From assembly GCF_023197165.1 (NCBI RefSeq), contig NZ_JALPRD010000007.1, positions 186,001-250,000 of the forward strand: 64,000 nt of DNA. The letters run 5' to 3'. The translations under genes and the position numbers were made by a program. The notes beneath the pieces were generated by a model. The model worked only from the letters and a program-made list of their open reading frames with translations. It searched no databases and was not told where the DNA came from. The stretch comes from Sphingopyxis sp. MSC1_008. GTDB lineage: Bacteria; Pseudomonadota; Alphaproteobacteria; Sphingomonadales; Sphingomonadaceae. Below are positions 19,232 to 39,642 of the stretch, one piece after another. Positions within the stretch are counted from its first letter, which is position 1. Every line of letters begins with the position of its first letter.

Positions 19232-20074
19232 ATGCGAACCTTGCTGCTTTCGATTGTCCTGCTGGCGTCCACCGCGCCCGTCTTTGCACAAGACGCCGTC
19301 GTCGACATCCACGTCCATCTGCACAAGGGCGAGGCGTCGGTCGCAGAATATCGGGCGCAGCTTAAAGCGTCGGGCCAGTCGGTCGACGCCTTCGGCGCGA
19401 TGTGGTTCGGCGGCCCCAACCAGGCGCTTGCGGGCAACCCCGCCGACATCCGCAAACGCAACGACGAACTGATCGGACTCGCGGCAAAGAACCCCGATAT
19501 GATCGCGATCGCGACCGTCCATCCCTATGACGGCGACGCCGCACTCGCCGAAGTCGATCGCGTCGCCGCGCGCGGCGTCAAGCTGCTCAAGATTCACCCG
19601 CACACGCAGAAATTCGATGCCGCCGACCCGCGCGTGCTGACGCTCGTCAAGCGCGCGGGCGAACGAGGCATGATCGTCGTCATGGACAACGCCGGTATCG
19701 TTCCCGACGACAATGAAAAGCTCTTCAACCTCGCGCTCGCCGCGCCGAAGACGAAGTTCATCTTCGGCCATATGGGCGGGCTGGGTTTCCGCTTCTGGAA
19801 CATCCTCGCGCTCGCGCGCACCGCCGAAAATCTCTTCGCCGACAATATCTATTTCGACATTTCGGCGAGCGTCATCCTCGCCGCGGACTCGCCGATCGAG
19901 GCCGAATATGTCTGGACGATCCGCAACGTCGGCGTCGACCATGTGCTGATCGCGTCGGACTTCCCGCAAATCTCTTTGCCGAAGACGCTCGATGCCTTCG
20001 CCAAGCTCGACCTCACCGACGAAGAGCGCGCAAAGATCTGCTCGGGCAACGCGAGGAAATTGCTCGGGCTTTAG
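19232..20074 (+). CDS. Exported amidohydrolase-family (TIM-barrel) hydrolase
   Basis: A 280-residue protein with signal peptide MRTLLLSIVLLASTAPVFA. The metal-binding VVDIHVHLHKGEASV follows directly, then KLLKIHPHTQKF, FIFGHMGGLGFRFW and VLIASDFPQ, the usual His/His/Lys/His/Asp order of the amidohydro_2 family. Members hydrolyse lactones or amides or decarboxylate acids. A periplasmic location is likely. GGAGC precedes the start. The stop TAG overlaps the convergent UPF0324 gene's stop by four bases. Substrate unknown. Confidence 0.87.
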   Translation: MRTLLLSIVLLASTAPVFAQDAVVDIHVHLHKGEASVAEYRAQLKASGQSVDAFGAMWFGGPNQALAGNPADIRKRNDELIGLAAKNPDMIAIATVHPYDGDAALAEVDRVAARGVKLLKIHPHTQKFDAADPRVLTLVKRAGERGMIVVMDNAGIVPDDNEKLFNLALAAPKTKFIFGHMGGLGFRFWNILALARTAENLFADNIYFDISASVILAADSPIEAEYVWTIRNVGVDHVLIASDFPQISLPKTLDAFAKLDLTDEERAKICSGNARKLLGL

Positions 20075-21171
20075 ACGATCGCGAGCGCGAACAGCAGCGA
20101 CACGGCAAAGCTCGTCAGCGAGGCAAGCAGCACGGGCACGCCCGCGCGCCAGCCCATTTCGAGCAGCAGGTCCATCCGGGTGCGCATAGCGGTCGCGGTA
20201 ACCGCGAGCAGCAACAGCGCCTTCGACGCGGTCAGCGCGCCGCCGCGCACCGCATCGGGGATCGGCGCAAGGCTGTTGAGCGACACCATCGCAAAGAAGG
20301 CGACGATGAACCAGGGCAGGGCAAGGCGCCGCCAGATGCGTTGTTCGCTGCCGTCCTCGGGTTTCAAGAGCAGCCCGACGAGCGCGACCACCGGCGCAAG
20401 CAGCGCGACGCGCGCCAGCTTGACGATCGTCGCGCTTGCCCCTGCGGCGTCCGAAAAGGCGTAGCCGCCGCCGATCGCCTGCGCGACGTCGTGGATCGAC
20501 GCGCCGATCAGAAACCCCGCCTGCGCATCGCTCAGCCCGAAGCGCGCCGCCAGCAAAGGATAGATCGTCATCGCGAGCGCGCTAGCGAGCGAGACGCCGA
20601 CGAGGGTCAATGCGAATTGCGCCTGCGACAGCCGCTGCCGCCCGATCACGCCATACAGCGCGAGCGCCGCGCTCGCGCCGCAGATCGCGGTCGCGCCGCC
20701 CGCGAGCAATCCGGCGTAAGGCGACTGACCCGAAATCCGCGCACCCAGAAATCCGGCGCCCATCGTCAATGTCATGATAATGATCAGCGCCGCGAACGGC
20801 ACCGGCCCAAGCACCGCGATCTGCAGGAAGGTGACTTGCAGGCCGAGCACAACAATCCCGAAGCGCAGGAAGGTGCGCGAGGCAAAGTCGAGCCCGCGGT
20901 GCGTGGCCTCGTTCGTCGAGATGAAATTGAGCGCCAGCCCGACGAGCAGGCCGAGGAGGATGATCGGAAAACCATAATGGTCGGACAGCCACGCCGCGGC
21001 GGCCGATGCCACCGCGCAGGCGGCGAGGCCGGGGAAAAGGCTGCCCTTTGGCGCCGTCCCGGCCATGGTCTGCGCAAGATGCAATTCGCCGAACAGGTCG
21101 CCCCCGCTCGGCAAATTGTTCCAGTGCGCGTGGCGCATCGATGTCAGATCGTTTCTGTCCAACGCTGTCAT
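20071..21171 (-). CDS. UPF0324 (YeiH-family) putative sulfate exporter
   Basis: About 366 residues with roughly ten hydrophobic segments. Family signatures are GIVVLGLQVTFLQIA, GATAICGASAALALYGVIG and LIGASIHDVAQAIGGGYAF, characteristic of UPF0324/YeiH. Members such as TauZ sit in taurine and other organosulfonate gene sets and are proposed to export sulfate or sulfite. Its position beside the LacI regulator and upstream of a sulfonate-monooxygenase operon supports that role here (inference). The start is uncertain: ATG 21171 or 21138, neither with a strong ribosome-binding site. Confidence 0.85.
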   Translation of the reverse strand: MTALDRNDLTSMRHAHWNNLPSGGDLFGELHLAQTMAGTAPKGSLFPGLAACAVASAAAAWLSDHYGFPIILLGLLVGLALNFISTNEATHRGLDFASRTFLRFGIVVLGLQVTFLQIAVLGPVPFAALIIIMTLTMGAGFLGARISGQSPYAGLLAGGATAICGASAALALYGVIGRQRLSQAQFALTLVGVSLASALAMTIYPLLAARFGLSDAQAGFLIGASIHDVAQAIGGGYAFSDAAGASATIVKLARVALLAPVVALVGLLLKPEDGSEQRIWRRLALPWFIVAFFAMVSLNSLAPIPDAVRGGALTASKALLLLAVTATAMRTRMDLLLEMGWRAGVPVLLASLTSFAVSLLFALAIV

Positions 21172-21328
21172 AATTTTGCGCCATATCGTGAAGCAGGGCT
21201 GGCGCGCAAGGCTTCTCTTGCGGTGCGCTGCTCGACGCGCCAAAGCAGACAGCGATAGCCAACAGGCCGACGGGGAGATGCGCAGCCGTGACGAGGATTT
21301 GCCAGCCGGGTGCGGAGCGCAAGCGCGC

Positions 21329-22333
21329 ATGACCCGGGCGACGATCAAGGATGTCTCGCGCGTCGCCGGCGTATCGATCAAGACCGTGTCGCGTGTGCTC
21401 AACAAGGAACGCTATGTCAGCGACGACATGCGGCAAAAGGTCGAGGAAGCCGTCGCGCGCCTCAACTATCACCCGAGCCAGGCGGCACGCACGCTCGCCG
21501 GAAAGCGTTCGTTCCAGATCGGGCTGATCCACGACAACCCCAGCCCCTATTATATCTTCAACATGCAGGCGGGGGTCGGGCAGCGCTGCCGCGAGGCCGA
21601 CTTCCGCATGATCGTCCAGCCGTGCGACATCAACTCGCCCGGCCTCGTCGACGATATCGGGGCGCTGATCGACCAGGCACAGCTCGACGGTATCATCATG
21701 ACCCCGCCGGTGACCGACGTCGGCACCGCGCTCGCCGAATTATTCCGCCGCAAGATTCCCGTCGTGCGCGTCCAGCCGGGCACCGATCTGACCGCGACCT
21801 CCGCGGTTTACATCGACAATGTGCAGGCGGCCGACGACATGACCGCCTATCTGATCTCGCTCGGCCATCGCCGCATCGGCTTCGTCACCGGCCATGGCAA
21901 TTATTTCGCGAGCGGTCAGCGACTGACCGGCTATCGGCAGGCACTCCAGCGCGCAGGCATTGGTTTCGACGCGGCGCTGGTTTTTCCGGGGCAGTTCGAT
22001 TTCCAGTCGGGAACCGCCGCTGCCGAAGCGCTGCTGGCGCTCGACCAGCCGCCGACCGCGATCTTCGCGAGCAGCGACGATATGGCCGCGGGCGTCCTCG
22101 CCGCGGCGCACCGGCTCGGCGTCGCGGTGCCCGACCAGCTATCGGTCGCGGGCTTCGACGACACCGACCTCGCGCAAGTGGTCTGGCCGTCGCTGACCAC
22201 GATCCACCAGCCGATCCGCGACCTCGGCTACGCCGCCGCCGACCTGCTGCTCGAATTCGGCGAGACGATCGAGCGACGCCAGCTTCCGCACAAACTGGTC
22301 GTGCGCGGCTCGACGGCGGCGCCCAAAAGCTGA
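21329..22333 (+). CDS. LacI-family regulator, proposed sulfoquinovose-locus repressor
   Basis: A 334-residue LacI-type protein. The helix-turn-helix is TIKDVSRVAGVSIKTVSRVLN with hinge HPSQAARTLAGKRS near residue 55, followed by a periplasmic-binding-protein-like sugar domain (IGLIHDNPSPYYIFN, GHRRIGFVTGH, FASSDDMAAGVL, VAGFDDTDLA). LacI regulators recognise dyads with a central CG. Three near-identical dyads of that kind lie downstream at 22450, 23909 and 28721 in front of an MFS gene, the aldo-keto reductase/monooxygenase operon and a TIM-barrel gene. The ligand is likely the pathway sugar or an intermediate. A weak half-match near 21247-21260 may allow autoregulation. Confidence 0.92.
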   Translation: MTRATIKDVSRVAGVSIKTVSRVLNKERYVSDDMRQKVEEAVARLNYHPSQAARTLAGKRSFQIGLIHDNPSPYYIFNMQAGVGQRCREADFRMIVQPCDINSPGLVDDIGALIDQAQLDGIIMTPPVTDVGTALAELFRRKIPVVRVQPGTDLTATSAVYIDNVQAADDMTAYLISLGHRRIGFVTGHGNYFASGQRLTGYRQALQRAGIGFDAALVFPGQFDFQSGTAAAEALLALDQPPTAIFASSDDMAAGVLAAAHRLGVAVPDQLSVAGFDDTDLAQVVWPSLTTIHQPIRDLGYAAADLLLEFGETIERRQLPHKLVVRGSTAAPKS

Positions 22334-22345
22334 CATTCCCATCAT

Positions 22346-22421: not shown

Positions 22422-22449
22422 AGCAAAGAAAATGCTGTCCTTTCGAATA

Positions 22450-22463: not shown

Positions 22464-22497
22464 CATCGAGCATAGACAGATTCGGGGAGAGACGATC

Positions 22498-23748
22498 TTG
22501 GCGCAAATCGCCGATAAACGCCGCTGGCTCGTGGTGGGGCTCGTCTTCATCGCAATCGTCCTCAACTATGTCGACCGCCAGATCCTTGCGCTGCTGAAGC
22601 CGACGCTCCAGCTCGAGTTCCACTGGACCGACCGCGATTACAGCCACATGGCTTCGGCCTTCCAGTTCGCCGCCGCGCTCGCCTTCCTCGGCACCGGCTG
22701 GTTTATCGACAAGGTTGGGCTGCGCTGGGGTTTCGCGATCGGCGTTGGCGTGTGGAGCCTCGCGGGCATGGCGCACGCCTTCGCGACGACGGTCTCGGGC
22801 TTCGTCGCCTCGCGTGCCGTCCTTGGCGCCGCCGAATCGATCGGCACCCCCGCCGCGGTGAAGACCGCCGCGACTTACTTTAACGCCAAGGAACGTAGCT
22901 TCGTCCTCGGCCTCGGCGGCATCGCGCCGAATGTCGGCGCGATCCTGACGCCTTTGCTCATCCCGCTGATGGCGCTGATGTGGGGGTGGCAGGCGACCTT
23001 TCTGATCGCCGGCGGGCTCGGCCTCGTCTGGGTCGTCGTCTGGCTCGCCGTGCGTATTCCCGAACAGCCGAACGCCGCGCGCGACGCCGCGGCGCCGAAG
23101 ATCGCGTGGAGCAGCCTGCTCCGCGACCGCCGCCAGTGGGCCGTGATCCTCGGCAAGGCGCTCACCGATCAGGTGTGGTGGTTCCTGCTTTTCTTCATGC
23201 CCGACCTGTTCCACCGCGTCTTCGGGCTGACGCAGGGTACGCTCGGGCTCCCTGTCGCCTTCGTCTATTTCATGGCCGCTTTGGGCGGCATTACCGGCGG
23301 TTATCTGCCCTCCTATCTGATGGGCCGCCGCGGCTGGACCGTGAACGCCGCACGCAAGACGACGATGCTGATCTACGCGCTGCTCATCCTGCCCGTGCCC
23401 TTGCTCGTCGGCGTCGACAGTGCATGGACCGCCGCGATGATCCTCGGCCTAGCGCTCTTCGCGCATCAGGGTTTCTCGACCAACCTCTTCGGCCTAACCA
23501 CCGACGTCTTCCCCGCGCGCATCGTCGGCTCGGCGATCGGGATCGGCGCCTTTGCCGGCAATTTGTCGGGCATGGCGATGATCGAGTTCGCGGGCTGGTC
23601 GCTCGACACGGGCAGGGGGTATCTGCCGATGTTCCTCGTCTGCGCCGTCACCTATCTCGTCGCGCTAGCCGCGATCCACCTCATCCTGCCGCGCATCGTC
23701 GCGGTGGACGAGGAGGAGGATGGCGAAGTGCAGGTGCTGGCGCATTGA
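22498..23748 (+). CDS. MFS transporter, ACS (anion:cation symporter) type
   Basis: A 416-residue, 12-segment major facilitator of the hexuronate/anion symporter type. LNYVDRQILALLKPTL is in the first segment, then GWFIDKVGLRWGFAIGVGVWSL and the acidic/aromatic ESIGTPAAVKTAATYFNAKERS typical of the ACS family. Such carriers import small organic anions with protons or sodium, which would suit sulfoquinovose. The start is TTG 22498 behind GGGGAGA. An operator matching two others in this locus overlaps its promoter, so it should be induced together with the reductase/monooxygenase operon. Substrate is inferred from context. Confidence 0.88.
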   Translation: MAQIADKRRWLVVGLVFIAIVLNYVDRQILALLKPTLQLEFHWTDRDYSHMASAFQFAAALAFLGTGWFIDKVGLRWGFAIGVGVWSLAGMAHAFATTVSGFVASRAVLGAAESIGTPAAVKTAATYFNAKERSFVLGLGGIAPNVGAILTPLLIPLMALMWGWQATFLIAGGLGLVWVVVWLAVRIPEQPNAARDAAAPKIAWSSLLRDRRQWAVILGKALTDQVWWFLLFFMPDLFHRVFGLTQGTLGLPVAFVYFMAALGGITGGYLPSYLMGRRGWTVNAARKTTMLIYALLILPVPLLVGVDSAWTAAMILGLALFAHQGFSTNLFGLTTDVFPARIVGSAIGIGAFAGNLSGMAMIEFAGWSLDTGRGYLPMFLVCAVTYLVALAAIHLILPRIVAVDEEEDGEVQVLAH

Positions 23749-23771
23749 TGGAAATGACGGATCATATTTAG

Positions 23772-23840: not shown

Positions 23841-23907
23841 GAAAACCGAAATCGAACCCTAGAATCGCATACGAAACCCACTTTCCTTGCATCCGATTAT
23901 GGAGTAT

Positions 23908-24819
23908 ATGACAGCGATGTCAGATTTTCTTCCCGCTCCCGCCAGTGTGACCGTCGCCGGTCATGAGATTTCTCCCATCGCCTGGGGCATGTGGCGCTTC
24001 GCCGGCGTCGACGCCGCGACCGCCCGCGCGCGCATCGACGCTGCGTTCGAGGCCGGCGTCACGCTGTTCGACACCGCCGACATCTACGGCTGCGACACCC
24101 CCGGTGGTTTCGGCTCGGCCGAAGCCCTACTCGGCGATGTCTTTGCCGAAGCCCCGGATCTCCGCGACAAGATGGTGCTCGCGACCAAGGGCGGGATCAT
24201 CCTCGGCCTGCCCTATGACAACAGCGCACCCTACCTGACCTCGGCGATCGACATCTCGCTGAAACGCCTGCGCACCGACCATGTCGAGCTGTGGCAGATC
24301 CACCGCCCCGACCTGCTCACCCACCCGCAGGAAATCGCACGCACGCTCGAGGACGCGCACCGCGCGGGCAAGATCGGCGCGATCGGCGTCTCGAACTTCA
24401 CGCCGGCGCAGACCGCGGCGCTCGCCAAATTCCTCCCCGTCCCGGTGGTCAGCCACCAGAGCGAATTTTCGCCGCTCCACCTCGCCCCGCTTTTCGATGG
24501 CATTTTCGATCAGTCGATGGCCGAGGGCATGAGCTTCCTCGCCTGGTCGCCGCTCGGCGGCGGCCGGCTCGGCGATCCGGCCGACGAGCGCACGCGCGCA
24601 GTCGCCGGACTGCTCGACGCAAAGGCCGCCGAATATGGCGTCTCGCGCGCCGCCGCGACCTACAGCTGGGTGATGGCGCATCCCGCGCGCCCGATCGCGA
24701 TCGTCGGCACGCAAAATGTCGAGCGCATCAGAGAAATTCCGCAAGCCTTCGCGCCGCGCTGGACGCGCGCCGAATGGTATGCGGTGCTGCAAACATCGAT
24801 GGGGGAGAAACTGCCATGA
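23908..24819 (+). CDS. Aldo-keto reductase, candidate 6-oxo-glucose reductase (SmoB-like role)
   Basis: About 303 residues with the full aldo-keto reductase tetrad: Asp55 and Tyr60 (LFDTADIYG), Lys94 (VLATKGG) and His132 (WQIHRPD). IGVSNF and GTQN (near residue 270) fit NADP(H) binding. It is fused by an ATGA overlap to the SsuD-like monooxygenase. In the Agrobacterium Smo pathway an aldo-keto reductase (SmoB) reduces 6-deoxy-6-oxo-glucose, made by the monooxygenase SmoC, to glucose; the same pairing here suggests the same role (inference). A LacI-type operator at 23909-23922 covers the start region. Starts at 23908 or 23917 are both possible; GGAG at 23901 is close to the first. Confidence 0.85.
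   Translation: MTAMSDFLPAPASVTVAGHEISPIAWGMWRFAGVDAATARARIDAAFEAGVTLFDTADIYGCDTPGGFGSAEALLGDVFAEAPDLRDKMVLATKGGIILGLPYDNSAPYLTSAIDISLKRLRTDHVELWQIHRPDLLTHPQEIARTLEDAHRAGKIGAIGVSNFTPAQTAALAKFLPVPVVSHQSEFSPLHLAPLFDGIFDQSMAEGMSFLAWSPLGGGRLGDPADERTRAVAGLLDAKAAEYGVSRAAATYSWVMAHPARPIAIVGTQNVERIREIPQAFAPRWTRAEWYAVLQTSMGEKLP
23909..23922. promoter_or_regulatory. LacI operator 2, overlapping the aldo-keto reductase start
   Basis: TGACAGCGATGTCA is a near-perfect dyad centred on CG. It differs from the site at 28721 at only two bases and physically covers both candidate start codons (23908 and 23917). A repressor here could block elongation or initiation as well as promoter access. Confidence 0.65.
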
Positions 24820-25883
24820 CCGACCGCAGTTGCGAAGTCAGCTGGTTTTCGGCGCTCTGCGACGACGACTATGAATTTCTCGGCGTTCCCGACCCGATGC
24901 TCAAATCGAGCTGGGAGCATTGCCGCGATATCGTGATGCAGGCGGATGCCCAAGGGTTCGACAATATCCTGCTCCCTTCGGGCTATGCGCTCGGCATCGA
25001 CACCACCGCCTTCGCCGCGGCGATCGCGACGATGGTGAAGAATATCCGCCTCTTGATGGCGGTGCGCATCGGCGAAAGCTGGCCGCCGCAGCTCGCGCGC
25101 CAGATCGCGACGATCGACCAGATTCTCGGCGGCCGCCTGACGGTCAACATCATCTCATCCGACATGCCCGGCGAGACGATGGACTCCGAACCGCGCTACC
25201 GCCGCACGGTCGAGGCGATGCATATCCTGAAGACGCTGCTGGGCGGCGAAGCGCTCGACCATGATGGCGAGTTCTGGAAGCTGCAGGTCGCCCCCGCGCG
25301 CGTCGGCACAGTATCGGGCAAGGCGCCGCCGCTCTATTTCGGCGGCCTCTCGCCCGCCGCGCGCGACGCCGCGGCGAAGGGCTGCGACGTCTTCCTGATG
25401 TGGCCCGACCGCGAAGAGGTGGTGAAGGAGATCATCGCCGACATGACGCAGCGCGCCGCCGCCTATGGCCGCACGCTGAAGTTCGGCTACCGCGCGCACA
25501 TGATCGTGCGCGATACCGAAAGCGAAGCGCGCACCGCCGCCGACCGCCTGCTGTCGAAACTCGACGCCGCGAAGGGTGCCGAGATCAAGGCCAAGTCGCT
25601 CGACTCGCAGTCGTTCGGCGTCAACGCACAGGTCGCCTTGCGTGAAGCCGCCTCCGACGACGGTTATGTCGAGGATAATCTCTGGACCGGGGTCGGCCGC
25701 GCCCGCTCGGGCTGCGGCGCCGCGATCGTCGGTGACCCCGACCAGGTGCTCGCGAAGCTGAACCGTTATCAGGACATGGGGATCGAGGCCTTCATCCTCT
25801 CTGGCTACCCGCACGCGGCCGAAGCCGACCTCTTCGCGCGCCATGTGCTGCCGAAGATGAAGCACGGGCCGCTCGAACTCTAA
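24816..25883 (+). CDS. LLM-class flavin monooxygenase, candidate sulfoquinovose monooxygenase (SsuD/SmoC-like)
   Basis: A 355-residue bacterial-luciferase-like monooxygenase close to alkanesulfonate monooxygenase SsuD. Visible: VSWFSAL at the N-terminus, GFDNILLPSG, MAVRIGESWPPQLARQIATIDQILGGR, YFGGLSPAARDAAAKGCDVFLMW, and the SsuD-type C-terminal FILSGYPHAAEADLFARHVLP. These enzymes use reduced FMN and O2 to cleave C-S bonds, giving an aldehyde plus sulfite. With an aldo-keto reductase in the same operon and a sulfoquinovosidase nearby, sulfoquinovose is the best substrate guess. It needs a separate flavin reductase; the SsuE-like gene at 41989 is the only candidate in the window. Family firm, substrate inferred. 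Confidence 0.87.
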   Translation: MTDRSCEVSWFSALCDDDYEFLGVPDPMLKSSWEHCRDIVMQADAQGFDNILLPSGYALGIDTTAFAAAIATMVKNIRLLMAVRIGESWPPQLARQIATIDQILGGRLTVNIISSDMPGETMDSEPRYRRTVEAMHILKTLLGGEALDHDGEFWKLQVAPARVGTVSGKAPPLYFGGLSPAARDAAAKGCDVFLMWPDREEVVKEIIADMTQRAAAYGRTLKFGYRAHMIVRDTESEARTAADRLLSKLDAAKGAEIKAKSLDSQSFGVNAQVALREAASDDGYVEDNLWTGVGRARSGCGAAIVGDPDQVLAKLNRYQDMGIEAFILSGYPHAAEADLFARHVLPKMKHGPLEL

Positions 25884-26074: not shown

Positions 26075-27241
26075 TTATCCCGCCCAAACTGCGGCATAAA
26101 GTTCCGCCATCTCGTCCGCATCGGGCACGCGCGGATTGTTCGCCGGCGAACCCGACGCCGCCGCCTGCGCGCACATCGTCGGCACCAGCGCGTCCCAGCG
26201 CGCCGCGTCGATGCCCCACGCCGCCGGCCCTGGCACTTCCAACTCGCGGTTGAGCGCCGCCAGTTCGTCGAGCAACCTTGCGACCGCCGACTGATCGCCC
26301 TCGGCTTCATCCGCCACCCCCATCGCCCGCGCGCAATCGGCATAGCGATGCAGCGCCGCGGGCGCCGACCAGGCCGTCACTGCGGGCAGCAGCATCGCGT
26401 TCGACAGCCCGTGCGGCACATGGAAATGCGCGCCGATCGGCCGGCTCATCCCGTGCACCAGCGCGACCGAACTGTTCGAGAAAGCGATCCCCGCCTGCGT
26501 CGCGCCCAGCATCATCGCCTCGCGCGCCGCCGCGTCCATCGGATCGCTGCACACGCGCCGCAAGTTCGGCGCAATCGCGCGCATCGCGAGCAAGGCCATC
26601 CCGTCGCTGAACGGGTTCGCGCGCTTCGACACATAGGCCTCGATCGCATGCGTCAAGGAATCGATCCCCGTATCGGCAGTCAGCCGCACTGGCTTCGTAA
26701 ACGTCAGCGCATAATCCACCAGCGCTGCGACCGGCAGATAGGCGAGCCCCGGACACAGCATCTTCTCGTCGGTCGCCTCGTCGGTGATGATCGTGAAGCG
26801 CGTTGCCTCCGACCCCGTGCCCGCGGTCGTCGGGATTGCGATGATCGGCAGCCCCGGCGCGTCCTGCACATGCGGCGCCTTGTAATCGGCCATCGCTCCG
26901 CCGAACCGGCCGAGCAAGGCAATCGCCTTCGCGCTGTCGAGCGGACTGCCGCCGCCGAAGCCGACGACGCAGTCGTGCTCGCCTTCGAGGAGAAACGCCA
27001 CCCCCGCATTGACCGAAGCAACCGTTGGATCGGGCACCGTCTCGGCGAACACGCGGGCAGCGATCCCCGCCGCCGTCAGACCATCGACCAGTTCCGCAAC
27101 GCGCCCGCTGCTCACCAGCCAGCCATCGGTCACGATCAGCGGCCGCGACAGCCCCAGCGTGGCCAGCACCTCGGCCAATTGCTTCGACGCCCCGCCGCCG
27201 ATACGCAGGATGCGGGGCAGGGCGATGCTTGCGATACTCAA
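26075..27241 (-). CDS. Iron-containing alcohol dehydrogenase
   Basis: About 388 residues of the group III (Fe-ADH) family. The NAD-binding segment is VVGFGGGSPLDSAKAIAL, then IPTTAGTGSEAT, and metal-ligand stretches DTGIDSLTHAIEAYVS and VHGMSRPIGAHFHVPHGLSNA. The start is probably TTG 27241, which overlaps the upstream MFS stop and has GGAG 8 bases before it; the open frame to ATG 27280 lies inside the MFS gene. Family members act on butanol, lactaldehyde, glycerol, maleylacetate or sulfonate-derived aldehydes. In this locus it could handle a three-carbon or sulfonated aldehyde, but nothing in the sequence fixes that. Confidence 0.88.
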   Translation of the reverse strand: MSIASIALPRILRIGGGASKQLAEVLATLGLSRPLIVTDGWLVSSGRVAELVDGLTAAGIAARVFAETVPDPTVASVNAGVAFLLEGEHDCVVGFGGGSPLDSAKAIALLGRFGGAMADYKAPHVQDAPGLPIIAIPTTAGTGSEATRFTIITDEATDEKMLCPGLAYLPVAALVDYALTFTKPVRLTADTGIDSLTHAIEAYVSKRANPFSDGMALLAMRAIAPNLRRVCSDPMDAAAREAMMLGATQAGIAFSNSSVALVHGMSRPIGAHFHVPHGLSNAMLLPAVTAWSAPAALHRYADCARAMGVADEAEGDQSAVARLLDELAALNRELEVPGPAAWGIDAARWDALVPTMCAQAAASGSPANNPRVPDADEMAELYAAVWAG

Positions 27242-28572: not shown

Positions 28573-28601
28573 CTCATCCTCTCTCGATCATCTTTACCCT
28601 T

Positions 28602-28681
28602 CGTCATCCCGGGCTTGACCCGGGACCCGCCTTGTCTTCGCCGAAGAAAAAGGCAGGCCCCGGATCAAGTCCGGGGTGACG
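28602..28681. repeat. Palindromic intergenic repeat, family A copy 3
   Basis: Left arm begins CGTCATCCCGGGCTTGACC at 28602. The right arm ends GGGGTGACG at 28681, with several mismatches and a longer spacer than copy 1. It sits between two divergent promoters, so it is not simply a terminator here. Confidence 0.75.
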
Positions 28682-28720
28682 GTCAAACGAGCCCAATTGA
28701 CTCCCGCTTCCAACACGATA

Positions 28721-28734
28721 TGACAGCGTTGTCT
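28721..28734. promoter_or_regulatory. LacI operator 3 (TIM-barrel gene / divergent MFS)
   Basis: TGACAGCGTTGTCT preceded by ATA, centred on CG, lies 14 bases before the TTG start of the isomerase-like gene. It matches the sites at 22450 and 23909. It may also control the divergent MFS/alcohol dehydrogenase pair about 150 bases to the left. Confidence 0.65.
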
Positions 28735-28747
28735 GAAAGGGAAGCCA

Positions 28748-29587: not shown

Positions 29588-29589
29588 TA

Positions 29590-29686: not shown

Positions 29687-29709
29687 TTGATATGGCTCCG
29701 ACCTGGGCA

Positions 29710-31143: not shown

Positions 31144-31221
31144 GTGCACCCCGGCGAAAGCCGGGGCCCAGAGCGTTGGAGCGCAAACGTGGCATGGGCC
31201 CCGGCTTTCGCCGGGGTGCAC
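31144..31221. repeat. Palindromic intergenic repeat, family B copy 2, abutting the kinase start
   Basis: Perfect 27-base arms (31144-31170 and 31195-31221), core CCCCGGCGAAAGCCGGGG, directly next to the kinase ATG on the minus strand. The kinase ribosome-binding site would lie inside the stem, so the hairpin could limit its translation. Confidence 0.8.
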
Positions 31222-31245
31222 AATATTGTCCGCTGGGCGCGAACG

Positions 31246-32646: not shown

Positions 32647-32647
32647 T

Positions 32648-34201
32648 TCACTCTCCCAAAAGCCTGCGGCTCGTATCGTTGATTTGTCGGCAGTGCGCGA
32701 TCTGCGATGCCTTCATGGCGTCATCCCAGCCGAGCAGTGCCCCGATCGCCTCGGCGGCTGGGGCGAGCACGGCAAGGCCGGCGCCCTCGTCGAACCAGGC
32801 GCGCGCGCTCCGTCGGACCCAATAATCTTCGAGCGTCGCGGCGCCTTCATGCGTTACCGCGCGCACGGCCTCGGCCGCCACATCGCCGCCCGCAATGACG
32901 ATCTCGTTAGCTTCGTCACCATAGAGTCCCGCCAGCCGCTCGGCGGCGATCGGGTCGAGTCCGTCCAGTCGCACACTCCGCGATCCACCGGGCAACGGCG
33001 CGTCGGCGGTTGAACAGGGCAGGACGGTCCGACCCAACCGCTCGACTACCAAATCGACGACGCGCTCGGCCATCGCGCGATAGGCGCTGAGCTTGCCCCC
33101 CGCGATCGACACCATCCCGCCCGGCGAAGTCCAGATCTCGTCCTTGCGCGATACCTCGTTCGCCTTCTTCCCCGGTTGCGCGATCAGCGGCCGCACCCCC
33201 GACCACAAAGACACGATCTCGGCATCGCGGATCGGATCGATGCTCAGCGCCGTCTCGGTCGCGCGCAGCAGATAGTCGATGTCGTCGCGGGTCGGCGCGG
33301 GCCAGTAATCGGCGCCATCGTGAAACACGTCGGTCGTCCCGACATAAGTGAAAGCCCCGCGCGGCACCGCAAAGATGCTGCGCTTGTCGGGCGCGCGAAT
33401 GATGATCGTAGAATTGATCGGCAACCGCTCGCGTCGCAGGACGAGATGAATCCCGCGGCTAAGCGACATGCGCGTGTCGCTTTCGCCCGCCTCCAGCCCG
33501 CGCACCTTGTCGACCCATGCGCCCGCCGCGTTGACCACCAGCTTCGCCTTGATCCGCGCGCCGAGCTTGTCATCGAGCGTCGACGTCGCGACCAGCCCGT
33601 CGCCGGTCAGTTCCGACGCCGCCGCATGGTTGACCACCACTGCCCCCGCACCCTGCGCGCTCCGCACATTGGCGAGCACCAGCCGCGCATCGTCGGTCAG
33701 AAACTCAGGATACAGCACCGCGCCGTTCAGCCGCTCGGTGCGCATCAACGGCTCGCGCCGCCGAAGCTCCGCGAGCCCGATCACCTCATGCTTCTCGGCC
33801 TCGGGCACGCCGCCCAGCTTCTCGAATGTCCACAGCCCCGTCCGCAATTTCGCGGTCATCGCCATGTTCGTCGTCGGGATCAGGAAGGGCGACAGCCGCG
33901 TCAGGTGCGGCGCGATCCGCCGCAATATCTGCCGTTCCGACGCCGCTTCCTTGACCAGCGCGATGTCGCCCTGCGCCAGATAGCGGAGCCCGCCATGGAT
34001 CATCTTCGACGACCGGCTGCTCGTTCCGCTCGCATAGTCGCGCGCCTCGACCAGCGCGACCGACAGCCCGCGCATCGCCGCGTCGCGCGCGATCCCGGCA
34101 CCGGTGATCCCGCCGCCGATCACCGCCAGATCGAACGTCCGCGATTCCAGCTCGGCAAAGACCTGCGCACGGCGCCGCGCATCGAGAGAAGTGCTGCTCA
34201 T
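32648..34201 (-). CDS. glpD: Aerobic glycerol-3-phosphate dehydrogenase
   Basis: A 517-residue FAD-dependent GlpD. The dinucleotide-binding motif is DLAVIGGGITGAGIARDAAMRG near residue 25, followed by SSKMIHGGLRYL, FAVPRGAFTYVGTTD, LWSGVRPLI and IAGGKLSAYRAMAE, the usual GlpD order. It oxidises glycerol-3-phosphate to dihydroxyacetone phosphate at the membrane, passing electrons to quinone. It leads the operon with the FAD oxidase and kinase and is divergent from a LysR gene. In the proposed locus it would process glycerol freed from sulfoquinovosyl-glycerol (inference). Confidence 0.93.
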   Translation of the reverse strand: MSSTSLDARRRAQVFAELESRTFDLAVIGGGITGAGIARDAAMRGLSVALVEARDYASGTSSRSSKMIHGGLRYLAQGDIALVKEAASERQILRRIAPHLTRLSPFLIPTTNMAMTAKLRTGLWTFEKLGGVPEAEKHEVIGLAELRRREPLMRTERLNGAVLYPEFLTDDARLVLANVRSAQGAGAVVVNHAAASELTGDGLVATSTLDDKLGARIKAKLVVNAAGAWVDKVRGLEAGESDTRMSLSRGIHLVLRRERLPINSTIIIRAPDKRSIFAVPRGAFTYVGTTDVFHDGADYWPAPTRDDIDYLLRATETALSIDPIRDAEIVSLWSGVRPLIAQPGKKANEVSRKDEIWTSPGGMVSIAGGKLSAYRAMAERVVDLVVERLGRTVLPCSTADAPLPGGSRSVRLDGLDPIAAERLAGLYGDEANEIVIAGGDVAAEAVRAVTHEGAATLEDYWVRRSARAWFDEGAGLAVLAPAAEAIGALLGWDDAMKASQIAHCRQINDTSRRLLGE

Positions 34202-34254
34202 GCCGTCACGCTAAGCGCATCACAGTGCCATTGGTATTGCAAAACAGGAATGAT

Positions 34255-35184
34255 ATGGTGCGCGCCATGAACCTCCGCCGCCTCCGCCATTTCGACACGC
34301 TTTACCGCCTGGCCAGCTATGCGCGCGCCGCCGACGAACTCGGCCTCACGCAATCGGCGCTGACCCGCTCGATCCAGAAGCTCGAGGAGGAACTGGGCAC
34401 GGCGCTCTTCGACCGCACCACCCATTATGTCCGCCCGACCAGCGATGCCGATCGCCTGATCCGTTCCGCCCGCGACGTCATCGCCGCCTCGGCGAACCTC
34501 GAACAGGAGGCGCGCGGCCTCGGCCATCCGAGCGGCGGTACCGTCGCGGTCGGCAGCGGCCCGTACCCGCTGCAACCCCTGCTCACCGACGCGATCGCGC
34601 GCTTCGCCGAAATGCATCCCGGCGTGCGCGTCACCGTCACCGGCGGCCCGTCGGAGCAATTGCTCGAAACCCTCGTCGACCGCCGCCTCGACCTTGTCGT
34701 CTGCAACCGCGCAAAATTCGCGTCGTCGGGCCACGCCGACGAGGTGCTCTGCATCCCGCTCCCGCCCGAGCCGCTGATGCTCGTCTGCGCGCCCGGACAT
34801 CCGCTCGCAAAGGGGCAGGGCGACAGCGCCGATTTCCCCTGGGCGCTCCCGCGCCCCGCGCCGGGCAGCAACCTGCCGCGCGGCCTGCGCGCACGCTTCG
34901 CCGCGGGACAATTCCCCGATTATGAGCTCGATTCCACCGCCGCCTGTCTCGACATGGCAAGGAGCGGCCGCGCGGTCACCGTCGTCCCGCGCGCGCTTGC
35001 GATCCGTTCGGGGCTGCACATGATCGCGCTGCCGCCGTCCGAGGTCACCCGCGACGCGATCCATCTCCTCCGCAACCGCAGCCGCAGCGCGCTCGTCGCC
35101 GCGTTCGTTGCGGTGCTGAAGGATGTCGCTCAGGCCGAAACGATCCCGTTGAACAACGCCGCGTCCGCCGATCCCGCGCGGTAG
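34255..35184 (+). CDS. LysR-family transcriptional regulator (divergent from glpD)
   Basis: About 309 residues. The N-terminal helix-turn-helix is MNLRRLRHFDTLYRLASYARAADELGLTQSALTRSIQKLEEELG, followed by a substrate-binding domain (VAVGSGPYPLQPLL, GGPSEQLLETLVDRRLDLVV, ALPRPAPGSNLPRGLRARFA). AGGAA at 34246 favours ATG 34255, though most LysR proteins would start at ATG 34267. The 50-base gap to the divergent glpD should hold its binding site, so control of the glpD operon is likely. Its 3' end overlaps the convergent GH31 gene by 55 bases, an unusually long antisense overlap. Confidence 0.9.
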   Translation: MVRAMNLRRLRHFDTLYRLASYARAADELGLTQSALTRSIQKLEEELGTALFDRTTHYVRPTSDADRLIRSARDVIAASANLEQEARGLGHPSGGTVAVGSGPYPLQPLLTDAIARFAEMHPGVRVTVTGGPSEQLLETLVDRRLDLVVCNRAKFASSGHADEVLCIPLPPEPLMLVCAPGHPLAKGQGDSADFPWALPRPAPGSNLPRGLRARFAAGQFPDYELDSTAACLDMARSGRAVTVVPRALAIRSGLHMIALPPSEVTRDAIHLLRNRSRSALVAAFVAVLKDVAQAETIPLNNAASADPAR

Positions 35185-37139
35185 AATACCGGCGGCTGCC
35201 CGAACGGCGCCGCGACGGTTACATCGCTGCCGCCTGCGTAGGTCTTGCCCGACCAGACATGGACCCATTCCGCGCCAGCAGGCAGGTACGTCGTCCAGTC
35301 GCTCTTCCCCGCCGCGATCACCGGCGCGACGAGCAAATCGGCACCGAGCAGATAGCTCGTCTGGATCGCATAAGTCTCCGCGTCGTCCTCGAAATGCAGG
35401 AAGAGCGGCCGCTGCACGGGCAACCCCGTCTCCGAAGCCTCCTTCGACAGCCGCCGCAAATAGGGCGCCAGATGCGCATAGATCCGCGTCATCTTCGCAA
35501 AATGCGCGAGCAGTTCCGCGTCATCGTCATATTGCACATTTTGCCGCGGCCGGTTGCCCTCGTGCGTCCGCATCATCGAGGTGAACGCCGACATCTCGGC
35601 CCAGCGCATCGCCAGTTCGGCATCGCGCGTCGTGTCGAACAGGCTCGTATAGCCGCCGCAGTCGCTGTGATGATGCGCGTTGCCGAGCATCCCCGCCGAC
35701 AGCGCGGCGCAGATCACGGTGCCGATTCCGTCGTGACGCGAAAAATCGACCGCCTGGTCGCCCGCCCACAGCATCGGGCAATGGCCCTGCACGCCGGTCG
35801 CGCCCGATCGCATGAACACCATCATCTCGCCCGTTTGCCCGCGGCCGGCGATCCCCTTGGCGTTGACCTCGCCCCACAAAGCCGGCCAGCGATTATGCGC
35901 GGTCATCCCGCTCTCGCCATTCGCCAGCCGCACATCGACCGGCAGATATTCGCCAAAATCGGCCATCCAGCCCGACAGCCCGAAATCGATCATCTTCTCG
36001 CCGATGATCGTATCGGCGAACCACGCCGCGGCCGCCGGATTGGTGAAGTCGACATGCCCGCAATCGAACTCGCCAAAGTCGATCACATAGGGCTCGTCAC
36101 GCTCGGGGTGCATGACCATGAAGCCCTGCGCCGCCGCCTCGGCATAAAGCGGCCCGTCCACCGCCAGATACGGGTTCACATAGCCAAGGAACCGAATGCC
36201 GCGCTCGCGCAATTCGGCAATCCGTGCGGGCAATTCAGGGTAACGCTCGGCATTCCACTGCCAGTCCCAGAAGAGGCGGTTGCCAAAGCTGGTGATGCGC
36301 AGCCCCACCCAATCCTCGCACCACAGCCCCGACACCGCGACCCCGGCGTCCTCATAGGCCTTCAATCGCGCAAAGCTGTTGTCACCATCCTTCAGCCCGA
36401 TCACGGCGCCCTTCAGCAGCCATTCGGGCAGCGCCGGCTGGCGCCCGAAGCGGTCCGACAGCGCCGTGACGAGTTCGGTGAAACGCGGCCGCGCCCACAG
36501 CTCGACCTTCGCGGGAATCTCCCAGACCTCGACCTCATGATAACCGTCATTGCGGAAATCGAACGCGGCATAAGCGAAGCTGTCGACATGCAGCGCATAA
36601 CGCCGCGAACTGACGAAGGTCGGCTGCGGATAATTGGTGTGAGCGTAACTGCCGCCACCGCCTTTGCGGTGCGCCTCGACCTGCTGGAACAAGGGCGATG
36701 CGGGGTCGCGCCCGACCCCCGGCTCGCTCGACCACAAAGGAAAATGCCGCCCGCGCAGGTCGAAATGGGAAAATTGCTCGCCGCCGCCCCACACATGCTC
36801 GCCGGCATCGGCCGGCACGCGCAGCCACAGCCGGTTGAGCGCGGGATCGAGCGCCGTCAGCGCGATCACCGCATTATCGCCATCGCCCGAAACCGTCGCT
36901 TCGAGCAGCCAGGGCGACCCCGCCGCCTCGGCAAAGCGCACGACATCGCCCGCCACCTCGACATGCCCCAGCGCAATCCGCTCGATCACCTCTTGGCCCA
37001 CATCGAAATGACCGAGCTTCGAATGGACATGCGCTTCGCCGCACCCGATGAAGAAACAGGGCACGCCCGCGCTGTGCGTCAGGATCGCCTGCCCGCCGAG
37101 GCGAAGCGCAAAGCCGGTATCGAGCGCATCAAGCGCCAT
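35130..37139 (-). CDS. GH31 sulfoquinovosidase (KERWY type)
   Basis: A 669-residue GH31 enzyme, strikingly close to E. coli YihQ along its length. It has the catalytic nucleophile Asp394 in WMADFGEYLP, acid/base Asp461 in LWAGDQAVDFS, and the sulfonate-recognition set Lys250 (GLKDGD), Glu275 (CEDW), Arg288 and Trp291 (SFGNRLFW) and Tyr497 (GGYTSLF). From memory these equal Q262, Q288, R301, W304 and Y508 of YihQ, and K245/E270/R283/W286/Y491 of the Agrobacterium enzyme SmoI. Such enzymes release sulfoquinovose from sulfoquinovosyl-glycerol or sulfolipid. There is no signal peptide, so it acts in the cytoplasm. ATG 37139 starts the homologous region. It follows a co-oriented TonB receptor gene. 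Confidence 0.93.
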   Translation of the reverse strand: MALDALDTGFALRLGGQAILTHSAGVPCFFIGCGEAHVHSKLGHFDVGQEVIERIALGHVEVAGDVVRFAEAAGSPWLLEATVSGDGDNAVIALTALDPALNRLWLRVPADAGEHVWGGGEQFSHFDLRGRHFPLWSSEPGVGRDPASPLFQQVEAHRKGGGGSYAHTNYPQPTFVSSRRYALHVDSFAYAAFDFRNDGYHEVEVWEIPAKVELWARPRFTELVTALSDRFGRQPALPEWLLKGAVIGLKDGDNSFARLKAYEDAGVAVSGLWCEDWVGLRITSFGNRLFWDWQWNAERYPELPARIAELRERGIRFLGYVNPYLAVDGPLYAEAAAQGFMVMHPERDEPYVIDFGEFDCGHVDFTNPAAAAWFADTIIGEKMIDFGLSGWMADFGEYLPVDVRLANGESGMTAHNRWPALWGEVNAKGIAGRGQTGEMMVFMRSGATGVQGHCPMLWAGDQAVDFSRHDGIGTVICAALSAGMLGNAHHHSDCGGYTSLFDTTRDAELAMRWAEMSAFTSMMRTHEGNRPRQNVQYDDDAELLAHFAKMTRIYAHLAPYLRRLSKEASETGLPVQRPLFLHFEDDAETYAIQTSYLLGADLLVAPVIAAGKSDWTTYLPAGAEWVHVWSGKTYAGGSDVTVAAPFGQPPVFYRAGSADAALFNGIVSA

Positions 37140-37175
37140 GGGGGAGGATCCTTTCACTACGACGCACTCATACGT

Positions 37176-37310
37176 TCCTCCCTGTGGCGAAGCCATGGGG
37201 AGGGGGACCGCTCGCGAAGCGAGTGGTGGAGGGGCCGCGACGTCGCGTCATCCCCCCTCCGTCAGCGGCTTCGCCGCTGCCACCTCCCCACCGCTATGCG
37301 GCAGGGAGGA
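37176..37310. repeat. Inverted intergenic repeat, family C
   Basis: Outer arms TCCTCCCTG and CAGGGAGGA enclose nested stems (TGGCGAAGCCA; CGCTCGCGAAGCGAG; GCGGCTTCGCCGC). It fills the gap between the TonB receptor and the GH31 gene, both read leftward, so it may partially terminate or stabilise the receptor transcript. Confidence 0.65.
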
Positions 37311-37317
37311 TTTACCG

Positions 37318-39642
37318 TCAGAAGTTCATCCGCGCCGTCACCCCGAAATAACGCTCGGCATCGCGCGGCGTGATCTGGCGCATGAAGGACGTTCCGTTCG
37401 GGATGCGCTGGATCACGAACTGCTTGTCGGTCAGGTTCTTGACGATGAACGACAGGCTGTATTTGTCGTCGTCGGTGCTCACCTTGATCCCGGCATCCCA
37501 GATTGCATAGGCGTTCTGGAACGCGTTGGGGTTCTGGTTGATGTCGAACTGGGTGCGGCTCTGGTAAACGAGCGAGCTGTTCAGATCGACGTTGAACCCG
37601 TCGATGTTGAGCGGCAGGCGCCAGTCCATCGTCACCGTGCCCTTATATTTCGGGGCAAAGGGTAGCGGCTTGCCGTTGATCGCGGCGGCACAGGTCACCG
37701 CGGCGCCCGGCGGGCAGATGAACTGGTTGATATGCGCGTCGGTGTAGTTGAACCCGCCCGACAGCGAGAAGTCGTCGGTGATCGCGGCGTTGAAATCCAT
37801 CTCGATACCGCGCGTCGACACCGTCCCCGCATTGGTCAGGCGCGTCACGACCTGCCCCGCGACGATATCGAGGAAGTTCGCCTGATAATTGTCGTATTTG
37901 GCATAGAAGCCTGCGAGGTTCAGCGTCAGGCGGCGATCGAACAACCGGGTTTTCAGGCCGACTTCATAGGCGTCCGACTTTTCGGGATCGATACGGCCGG
38001 TATCGCGCGCCAGCATGTTGAAGAACACGTTGAGCGCCGGACCCTTATAGCCGCGCGTATAGGTCGTATAGGCGACGATATCGTCGGTCAGGTCATACTG
38101 CAGTCCGGCATTGCCCGACCAGCCATTGTCCTTGATCGACCCGGCCGAAGCGAACGCCGGATTCACGCCGGTGAACGCCGCGAGCGAAGTCGAGCGACGC
38201 GCGAAGTCATAGCTGACCTTGTCCTCGGTGTAACGCAGGCCGATGATGCCGCGGAACGCGTCGGTAAAGTTCAGCGTGCCCTGACCGAACGCCGAATAGC
38301 TGGTCAGCTTGGTAGTGAAGTCGGCATTGCCTTCGTTGGTGACAAAGGTCGACGACCCGGCGGCGCACGGCGTCAGCCCGCCCACGGTCGGCAGCGTCGA
38401 CGCGGTGCAGCTTGTCACCGTGCGGTTGAAAAAATCGACTTCCTTCGTGTGATAATAATAGAGGCCCGCAACATATTCGAAGAATTGCGGATTCGCCGAC
38501 GCGATGCGCAATTCCTGCGTGAACTGGTCGAACTTCAAATCGCCGCGATCGTGCGAACGCACATCGCCCGCGGCGGTGCCGGTGTTGACATAGCGCGGGG
38601 CATCCGACCGGAAATCGCCATCGCGCTGCTGGAAATTATACCAGTGGCGGTACGCGGTGATTGAGGTCAGCGTGACTCCGCCGAGATCGAGGTCGATCTG
38701 CCCTGACACACCGCTGTTCTTGTCCTTGGTATAGGGATCGAGGTCGTTGTCGATGTCCTTGTTCTTGCCGTCGAGCACCAGCGGCGCGAGGCTCGGGATG
38801 AACACGGCGTTGTTGAATGCCGACGGGAAGACGGTGCCGATGCTGTCGGCGAACCCATTGTCGCTGTTCTTCGAATAATCGGCGATCAGCGTGATCTTGA
38901 GGTTGTCGGTCGGCTCGGCGATCACCTTGCCGCGCACGCCCCAATGTTCGTAGCCATTGACCTTGTTGTTGTTGAACACGTTGCGGGCGTTGCCGTCATA
39001 TTGCGACCAGAAACCGGTGAGCGAGGCGCGAATGCCGTCGCCGAGCGGGCCGCCAACGCTGCCGCGGATGCGATATTCATTGCCCTCATACCAGGCCGCG
39101 TCGACATAACCGCCCAGCTCGTTGCCGGGCTCGCGCGACACGATGTTGATCACGCCGGCGCTGGCATTCTTGCCGAACAGGCTGCCCTGCGGGCCGCGCA
39201 GCACTTCGATGCGCTCGACGTCGAGGAAATCCGACGTCTGCTGGCCGGTGCGCGCATAGACGACGCCGTCGATCACGGTCGACACCGAAGGTTCGACGCC
39301 CGACGAAAAGCTGATCGTGCCGACGCCGCGGATCGAGAGCGCGGAATCCTTGTTGGTGTTGCCCTTGCGGAAGGTCAGCGTGGGGACGCGCTGGAACAAT
39401 TGTTCGGCCGAATTGACGTTCGACCGTTCGAGCTGCGCACCCGACACGACCGAGATCGCGACCGGTACGTCCTGCAGATTCTGTTCGCGTTTCTGCGCGG
39501 TGACGATGATGTCGGTGCTGGCAAAGGGGGCGTCGGCTTCGGCGGGGGCAGGGGCGTCTTGCGCTGCCGCGGGGGCGGCGATCAGCGCCATGCCCAATGC
39601 CGTCGTGATTGTAAGATAGGCTTTGGCTTTCGACGAAACCAT
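37318..39642 (-). CDS. TonB-dependent outer-membrane receptor (candidate sulfoquinovoside uptake)
   Basis: About 774 residues. The signal peptide YLTITTALGMALIAAPAAAQ is followed by the plug beginning STDIIVTAQKREQNLQDVPVAISV, LSIRGVGT, and RIEVLRGPQGSLFGKNASAGVINIVSREP, then a 22-strand-type barrel ending in YFGVTARMNF with the terminal Phe. GGGAGGAT is well spaced before ATG 39642. It imports bulky substrates across the outer membrane with TonB energy. It lies upstream of, and co-oriented with, the sulfoquinovosidase gene, so sulfoquinovosyl-glycerol or a related glycoside is the likely cargo (inference). Confidence 0.92.
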   Translation of the reverse strand: MVSSKAKAYLTITTALGMALIAAPAAAQDAPAPAEADAPFASTDIIVTAQKREQNLQDVPVAISVVSGAQLERSNVNSAEQLFQRVPTLTFRKGNTNKDSALSIRGVGTISFSSGVEPSVSTVIDGVVYARTGQQTSDFLDVERIEVLRGPQGSLFGKNASAGVINIVSREPGNELGGYVDAAWYEGNEYRIRGSVGGPLGDGIRASLTGFWSQYDGNARNVFNNNKVNGYEHWGVRGKVIAEPTDNLKITLIADYSKNSDNGFADSIGTVFPSAFNNAVFIPSLAPLVLDGKNKDIDNDLDPYTKDKNSGVSGQIDLDLGGVTLTSITAYRHWYNFQQRDGDFRSDAPRYVNTGTAAGDVRSHDRGDLKFDQFTQELRIASANPQFFEYVAGLYYYHTKEVDFFNRTVTSCTASTLPTVGGLTPCAAGSSTFVTNEGNADFTTKLTSYSAFGQGTLNFTDAFRGIIGLRYTEDKVSYDFARRSTSLAAFTGVNPAFASAGSIKDNGWSGNAGLQYDLTDDIVAYTTYTRGYKGPALNVFFNMLARDTGRIDPEKSDAYEVGLKTRLFDRRLTLNLAGFYAKYDNYQANFLDIVAGQVVTRLTNAGTVSTRGIEMDFNAAITDDFSLSGGFNYTDAHINQFICPPGAAVTCAAAINGKPLPFAPKYKGTVTMDWRLPLNIDGFNVDLNSSLVYQSRTQFDINQNPNAFQNAYAIWDAGIKVSTDDDKYSLSFIVKNLTDKQFVIQRIPNGTSFMRQITPRDAERYFGVTARMNF

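Follow-up and report, generated by a model that had tools for sequence, protein, structure and literature searches.

The window analysed here (G000:C7:186001-250000, 64,000 nucleotides of the 4.75 Mb genome of Sphingopyxis sp. MSC1_008) carries at positions 20071-42588 a locus for the utilisation of sulfoquinovose (SQ), with a UPF0324 gene at one end and an FMN reductase gene at the other. The locus is read as an oxidative SQ pathway of the sulfo-SMO type, built on a sulfoquinovosidase (SQase), an SQ monooxygenase (SMO) and an aldo-keto reductase, and joined to a separable cassette that would handle the lipid backbone remaining after SQ release. A probability of roughly 0.62 was assigned to this explanation as a whole, a figure weighted to the SQ part; taken by itself, the sulfo-SMO reading of the locus is very probable from the sequence comparisons. 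The initial annotation had placed the locus at 20071..39642. The genes that it named are all present, with matches far above chance. Its start was retained and its end was not, as the likely flavin reductase gene (41989-42588) lies about 3 kb further out. Genes that it had left unlisted are those for a LacI regulator, an iron-dependent alcohol dehydrogenase (Fe-ADH), a TIM-barrel-like protein and the LysR regulator at 34225-35184 and, beyond its interval, the LysR, PhyH and FMN reductase genes at 40190-42588. Positions refer to the window; other genomes, contigs and loci are designated G, C and L.

The gene at 35130..37196 (minus strand) encodes a sulfoquinovosidase of glycoside hydrolase family 31 (GH31) and of the KERWY type. 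The protein scored 877 bits on the YihQ-type NCBIfam model PRK10426, above the cut-off of 553, and its best PDB matches were 5ohy and 5ohs ('Alpha-glucosidase yihQ', E ~1e-280), which we take to be the Agrobacterium enzyme. Equivalents of K245, E270, R283, W286 and Y491, presumably the sulfonate-binding set, were present on the alignment on which positions were counted, as was that of the acid/base residue D455, presumably the catalytic acid. All motif patterns checked in seven GH31 proteins occurred in the window protein; the K motif was found in six of the seven and not in L033. The confident identification given in the initial annotation is therefore well founded, and the enzyme is predicted to hydrolyse SQ glycosides.

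The monooxygenase is of the FMNH2-dependent SmoC/SquD type. Its true open reading frame (ORF) is 24816..25883 (plus strand), the mechanically called ORF 24291-25883 being too long, and its start overlaps the end of the aldo-keto reductase gene (24819) by ATGA. The closest PDB entries were 7olf (E=2.6e-114) and 7oh2 (1.4e-112), which we take to be the SQ monooxygenases of Agrobacterium/Rhizobium, followed by 7jv3 (1.4e-67), presumably MsuD, and SsuD 1m41 (2.4e-58). In a 19-row tree the SMO was likewise found with 7olf/7oh2 and apart from SsuD and 7jv3, with branch support of 100/99. Clustering with SsuD/MsuD, which the initial annotation had named as the outcome that would speak against it, was thus looked for and did not appear, and membership of SsuD/MsuD was rejected on scores and tree alike. 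The overlapping reductase gene (23887..24819, plus strand) encodes a SmoB/SquF-like protein that matched aldo-keto reductases in the PDB, with 7bbz on top (E=1.4e-43), presumably SmoB although its PDB name is aryl-alcohol dehydrogenase. The SmoC/SmoB pairing proposed at the outset is supported by the ATGA overlap, the 7olf/7oh2 scores and the tree. Joint presence of SmoB and SmoC is taken as sulfo-SMO positive in PMC13372026, and in the window the SmoB/SquF oxidoreductase is co-located with the SMO. The FMN_red flavin reductase (41989..42588, plus strand; PF03358) is 44-51% identical to proteins that start 18-319 bases behind the SMO in 18 other loci, and it is likely the SmoA/SsuE-equivalent partner of the SMO.

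Transport genes surround this core. The TonB-dependent receptor (37318..39699, minus strand; PF00593/PF07715) is the probable outer-membrane port and MFS transporter 1 (MFS1; 22498..23748, plus strand; PF07690) a probable permease for SQ or SQ-glycerol; with the second MFS carrier at 27238-28572, they account for the receptor and two carriers annotated initially. The putative sulfite/sulfate exporter of the UPF0324/YeiH type, also annotated before, is a membrane protein encoded at 20071..21405 (minus strand) that scored 175 bits against 24.5 on PF03601 and remained below the cut-off of TIGR00698 (112 vs 233). In the proposed pathway, the TonB receptor and MFS1 would import SQ glycosides from plant or algal sulfolipid and the GH31 enzyme would cleave off SQ. 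The SMO, together with the FMN reductase, would convert SQ to 6-oxo-glucose and sulfite, the SmoB-like reductase would yield glucose from the 6-oxo-glucose, and the UPF0324 protein would export sulfite or sulfate. The host would thereby be expected to release sulfite and to grow on SQ.

The recurrence of these genes was followed in a scan of named genomes, which gave at least 594 pattern matches for the SMO, of which 580 were confirmed and the best 80 loci kept. This sample is biased toward close relatives and includes Caulobacterales; 49 of the 80 loci had full flanks (at least 9.9 kb on either side of the SMO), and a neighbour was counted when a homologue of at least 100 bits lay within 10 kb. 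The reductase was found in 48 of the 49 loci, MFS1 in 43, LacI in 40, the TonB receptor in 39, UPF0324 in 32, GH31 in 17, the FMN reductase in 11, Fe-ADH in 7, the alkyl-dihydroxyacetone phosphate synthase (AGPS)-like protein of the cassette in 6 and PhyH in 5. These counts denote homology and not orthology, since the MFS1 matches go as low as 39% identity and those of the TonB receptor as low as 25%. TonB receptor, MFS and reductase occurred jointly in 35/49 loci, so that TonB plus MFS is the usual arrangement in the sampled SMO loci and not the new composition that the initial annotation had seen in it. GH31 did not lie within 10 kb of the SMO in 32 of the 49; some of these loci may have GH188 in its place, a family reported for 'Sphinomonas sp. 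Leaf17' in PMC10755693. Of the 298 family genomes 78 had an SMO at E<=1e-60, as did 28 of the 80 genomes of the genus, and among the matches listed nine named records, seven of them labelled Sphingopyxis, had a monooxygenase 93-99% identical to that of the window.

The Agrobacterium sulfo-SMO (Smo) cluster has the same GH31 SQase, SmoC-like monooxygenase and SmoB-like reductase. It uses an ABC importer, whereas the window has TonB plus MFS import, an FMN_red-type flavin reductase 16 kb off and an extra cassette. Nor is an oxidative SQ locus new to a sphingomonad: section 5 of PMC12890257 already reports the sulfo-ASMO pathway for Novosphingobium aromaticivorans, which is the same pathway in the same bacterial order. 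The SQ part is thus of a known type, ordinary for sphingomonads, and strong by sequence.

The cassette is the linked, separable part of main interest. It covers 7.9 kb (27258..35129) between the Fe-ADH and GH31 genes and comprises MFS transporter 2 (MFS2; 27238..28572, minus strand; PF07690), a TIM-barrel protein, a kinase, an AGPS-like flavoprotein, a GlpD-like dehydrogenase and LysR regulator 1. The kinase (29710..31221, minus strand) is a divergent GlpK-like FGGY kinase with an altered glycerol pocket. It remained below the curated GlpK cut-offs (330 bits vs 590 on TIGR01311, and 309 vs 498). Of the residues that we take to be the glycerol contacts, in E. coli GlpK numbering, the equivalents of E84 and Y135 were lost in 7/7 cassette-type kinases and those of R83, W103 and D245 were kept. 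The losses appear in the alignment as replacement of the glutamate of the QRE motif and of the tyrosine of DPYFS, and the same seven proteins lack 11 columns before the QRE motif; these features were intact in both canonical kinases aligned and in the kinases of L032, L064, L047, L055 and L096. The GlpD-like FAD dehydrogenase (32648..34201, minus strand) is not a canonical GlpD, with 286 bits on PRK12266 against a cut-off of 360. A second GlpD of the same genome reached 710 against this cut-off, and a GlpK recognised by its canonical motifs, and not by a curated-model score, is encoded on C2. The plain GlpK/GlpD reading of the cassette pair was rejected on the scores and the changed kinase pocket. 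Of the glycerol-3-phosphate branch annotated initially, the gene families stand and the canonical GlpK/GlpD pair does not: compared with canonical GlpK/GlpD catabolism, the families are the same, and the window differs in the kinase pocket, in scores below the cut-offs and in having canonical copies elsewhere. Canonical-motif GlpK genes about 0.2 kb behind the SMO were observed in two Sphingobium loci (L047:11283-12512 and L055:11276-12505); apparently these hold a true glycerol branch within an SQ locus, one that looks unlike the cassette.

The third enzyme (31246..32646, minus strand) had been annotated as an FAD oxidase. The FAD_binding_4 protein is indeed present, and its closest solved relative is an AGPS (AGPS/ADPS; 2uuu, E=3e-56; best non-AGPS entry a glycolate oxidase, 7e-31). 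Its best NCBIfam model was GlcD, at 165 against a cut-off of 568, and naming it GlcD or glycolate oxidase was rejected, AGPS being the far better PDB match. The HHH motif, which we take to be a catalytic feature of AGPS, and equivalents of R352 and Y508 occurred in all 10 aligned AGPS-like sequences, the window included (positions counted on the aligned chain, offset 3). R352 and Y508, together with R447, are described as important in Dictyostelium AGPS in PMC3509576, which also describes expulsion of the sn-1 acyl group of acyl-dihydroxyacetone phosphate (acyl-DHAP) via a flavin adduct. These AGPS-type residues would point to DHAP esters or ethers as the substrate.

The cassette is naturally present or absent among close relatives. 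It was missing as one block in L007 (Sphingopyxis sp. Root154) and L008 (S. soli BL03), and blastn placed the breakpoints at identical window positions in both, with 19 unmatched bases between the matched blocks in each. The genes for Fe-ADH, GH31, SMO and TonB receptor are retained in both loci; L006 stops just behind the SMO and is uninformative on the cassette. Since the cassette stands at the same place in L013 (Sphingobium boeckii) and L017/L141 (Sphingomonas colocasiae), its loss in L007 and L008 would be the simpler reading. The AGPS-like gene was found in 18/80 Sphingopyxis genomes, 17 of which also had the SMO (Fisher P=3e-9, kinship ignored). In the genus, 19 genomes had an SMO of nearly full length with an identity of 92% or more, G623 with its partial SMO and no AGPS-like gene being left out of the count; the AGPS-like gene was present in 17 of them and absent from G600 and G608. 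In G646, whose assembly is 85% complete and 7% contaminated, the AGPS-like gene was seen and the SMO was not.

In wider samples, matches to the AGPS-like gene were found in 4/298 genomes of the family (E<=1e-100), 6/289 of the class and 6/398 of the phylum (both 1e-60), in samples that overlap and include the own genome. Apart from the own genome, the one match of the phylum set above 37% identity was in G783 (57%), the four others lying at 33-37%. Among nine non-Sphingopyxis genomes with an AGPS-like protein of at least 55% identity, GH31 was present in all four at 74% or more (G021, G253, G201 and G470). In G201 and G470 GH31 occurs with the triad of GlpD, AGPS and kinase genes and an SMO orthologue was not found (best 32% and 28%), so that the cassette set is not tied to one route of desulfonation. 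No further than about 20 kb from GH31 and the triad, both genomes carry a dihydroxy-acid-type dehydratase, an HpcH/HpaI aldolase, an SMP-30 lactonase, an aldehyde dehydrogenase, and GD_AH_C and Ldh_2 proteins; G470 additionally has a 2-hydroxyacid dehydrogenase, an aldose epimerase and an SDR protein. From family knowledge and PMC12421959, we read these genes as of sulfo-Entner-Doudoroff (sulfo-ED) and SuyB/ComC/SlcC type; an SQ dehydrogenase was not identified among the G201 genes near GH31 and the triad. The sulfosugar ED-type and SlcC/ComC-SuyAB tandem route is described there for sulfofucose, and G470 and G201 combine such families with the SQase and triad that the window also has. The window, by contrast, has the SMO, and nothing in it matched those genes. 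SQase, triad, PhyH, sulfo-ED-type and sulfolactate-lyase-type genes were observed together over about 29 kb in G201 (L137/L169/L170) and about 37 kb in G470 (L120/L138/L139/L171).

It is proposed that the cassette handles the aglycone, an acyl- or alkyl-glycerol remaining after SQ release. Cleavage by the SQase would expose the sn-3 hydroxyl for phosphorylation by the divergent GlpK-like kinase; the GlpD-like enzyme would then oxidise C2 to give a 1-O-substituted DHAP. From this the AGPS-like flavoenzyme would expel the sn-1 substituent, forming a flavin-DHAP adduct that would be captured by water to give DHAP and a fatty acid or alcohol. Action of the cassette on a glycerol-type aglycone is an even bet; the specific acyl/alkyl-DHAP chemistry is put forward tentatively, as one candidate. 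Somewhat more doubtful is the fullest form of the idea, a catabolic 'reverse AGPS' route of bacteria in which kinase, GlpD-like and AGPS-like enzymes would free the backbone of a lyso-sulfolipid or alkylglycerol of its acyl or alkyl chain by way of acyl/alkyl-DHAP, as a module interchangeable between the SMO and the sulfo-ED/sulfo-lyase routes. According to PMC3509576, known AGPS builds ether lipids, whereas the catabolic, hydrolytic use in the window is a proposal and R447 is not kept throughout. Lipid-type neighbours were noted in relatives, counted by example and without a background rate: an acyl-CoA ligase beside GH31/TonB in L120, L137 and L141, that of L120 scoring above one long-chain fatty acid ligase cut-off. 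L121 has an acyl-CoA thioesterase next to GlpD/AGPS, L123 a fatty-acid desaturase next to its AGPS-like gene, and L120 also a protein of the fatty-acid-hydroxylase family as well as an aldehyde dehydrogenase. Other neighbours were of unrelated kind, for example a RecQ helicase and an ABC ATPase in L124.

A number of observations weigh against the proposed combination. The R447 equivalent was found in only four of the 10 AGPS-like sequences (window, L013, L017 and L137) and not in the other six. The cassette is dispensable for SQ use, as L007 and L008 retain SQase and SMO without it, and GH31 at E<=1e-60 was not found in five genomes with AGPS-like proteins at 65% or less (G412, G419, G522, G537 and G783), so that the triad functions outside SQ metabolism as well. 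The window locus had no match to the acyl-CoA ligase seen in relatives, a 55% relative lying on another contig (L152), and no lipase family match was obtained among the window genes scanned. On the SQ side, long branches were flagged in the SMO tree, where two very long rows (L157 and L158) may produce false joins. The reductase was below every listed NCBIfam cut-off, and 4r9o (2.5e-43) and YdhF (7.5e-42) were nearly level with 7bbz, so that the SmoB call is mainly contextual. The FMN_red protein remained far below the SsuE, MsuE and ArsH cut-offs, with ArsH as its best curated model, and two more distant FMN_red relatives are encoded elsewhere in the genome; its pairing with the SMO can for these reasons only be inferred.

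The PhyH-family Fe(II)/2-oxoglutarate dioxygenase (41189..41977, plus strand; PF05721) has H116, D118, H206 and R217, the presumed metal and 2-oxoglutarate residues, invariant in 12 aligned sequences. At E<=1e-40 it was found in 14 of 298 family genomes, 13 of which had the SMO (Fisher P=1e-7, kinship ignored); PhyH and SMO were at most 17 kb apart on one contig in 11 of these 13 and on different contigs in two. It also lay near GH31 in both GH31 genomes lacking the SMO (G201 and G470). By these associations PhyH belongs to the SQ context. In L174 (G783):7567-13858, in a genome without a GH31 SQase match, the GlpD-AGPS-kinase triad was observed near a different PhyH-family gene, a hint that triad and PhyH may be linked beyond SQ metabolism.

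Among other explanations of the cassette, an ordinary glycerol branch would have SQ-glycerol split into SQ and glycerol, the latter converted to DHAP by the kinase and the GlpD-like enzyme, with the AGPS-like protein as an auxiliary redox enzyme. The kinase and GlpD-like proteins are indeed nearest to glycerol kinases and glycerol-3-phosphate dehydrogenases, R83, W103 and D245 are kept, and a canonical-motif kinase stands behind the SMO in L047 and L055; PMC10755693 reports that Arthrobacter grows on the glycerol part of SQ-glycerol. This explanation must nevertheless contend with the loss of E84 and Y135 in all seven kinases, the scores under the GlpK/GlpD cut-offs and a genome already equipped with an above-cut-off GlpD and, on C2, a canonical-motif GlpK, and it leaves the AGPS-like protein unexplained; we regard it as unlikely. 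A little less likely again is a cassette for another C3 or polyol compound (for example 2,3-dihydroxypropane-1-sulfonate, sulfolactate or a glycosyl-glycerol) imported by MFS2 and linked to SQ by nutrient co-occurrence. In its favour, G470 and G201 have MFS2 orthologues (78-81%) adjoining genes for UPF0324 and of the sulfolactate-lyase type, and a triad or AGPS-like member without GH31 is present in five genomes, in G783 with genes for an alpha-L-fucosidase and a PhyH-family protein close by. The SuyB-, Ldh_2- and sulfo-ED-type genes of G201, however, had no match in the window, to which the search was confined, the AGPS-type residues point to DHAP esters or ethers, and routes for C3 sulfonates would not be expected to include a kinase.

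Two further alternatives concern desulfonation. With its Fe/2-oxoglutarate residues intact, with the SMO in 13 of its 14 genomes and with GH31 nearby in the two SMO-less ones, PhyH might be a second, sulfo-SDO-like desulfonating enzyme, giving the locus two oxidative routes. Those two genomes carry sulfo-ED-type genes, which weakens the case for PhyH as the main desulfonase, and no close PDB relative was found (best EvdO2, 1.6e-8), so that this role is improbable. That the SMO is a general sulfur scavenger of the SsuD/MsuD type, and the locus not an SQ carbon pathway, is very improbable: the SMO does belong to the LLM/SsuD family and is matched by the model for alkanesulfonate monooxygenase, but below its cut-off (258 vs 518), and 7olf/7oh2 are far ahead of 7jv3 and SsuD, in agreement with the tree, the KERWY GH31 enzyme, the overlap with the reductase gene and the recurrence of the arrangement. 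The combination of a sulfo-SMO pathway with a backbone cassette is preferred.

The remaining genes of the locus are as follows. Fe-ADH (26075..27280, minus strand; PF25137/PF00465), whose true start is probably at or below 27257, has alcohol dehydrogenase 2 and lactaldehyde reductases as nearest PDB entries. The LacI-family regulator is encoded at 21065..22333 (plus strand; PF00356/PF13377), the given ORF start being probably too far upstream. LysR regulator 1 lies at 34225..35184 (plus strand; PF00126/PF03466), and LysR regulator 2 (40190..41110, minus strand) is divergent from PhyH, beside which it also occurs in L120/L138, L141 and L169. The xylose-isomerase-like TIM-barrel protein of the cassette (28748..29587, plus strand), on the opposite strand to its neighbours, had itself no Pfam match and was assigned via its orthologue L138:12923-13741, for which PF01261 gave E=5e-6 and 26.7 bits, below the cut-off of 31.1. 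The plus-strand reading is conserved at 55-95% in relatives, and a minus-strand reading of 28604-29713 was ruled out as less well conserved. Upstream of the SQ locus, two sulfatase-family genes were observed at 12316-16519, the second of which (95%) also stands upstream of the L007 locus. Beyond the other end, and not counted in the SQ locus, a TonB receptor is followed by genes of chondroitinase-B type (PF14592) and alginate-lyase/heparinase type (42636-50206), probably an alginate utilisation locus.

PMC12890257 counts SQ as one of the most abundant sulfur-containing organic compounds. The SQ papers covered are concerned with the sugar. No dedicated pathway for the lipid backbone was found in the SQ literature searched, which was covered in part by title or the start of the abstract, and a literature search for AGPS with a glycerol kinase in a gene cluster found none. 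If the proposal is true, the cassette would be a dedicated pathway for the sulfolipid backbone, in which AGPS-type flavin chemistry would be used in breakdown and not in synthesis. The natural presence and absence of the cassette within Sphingopyxis would make this idea directly testable.

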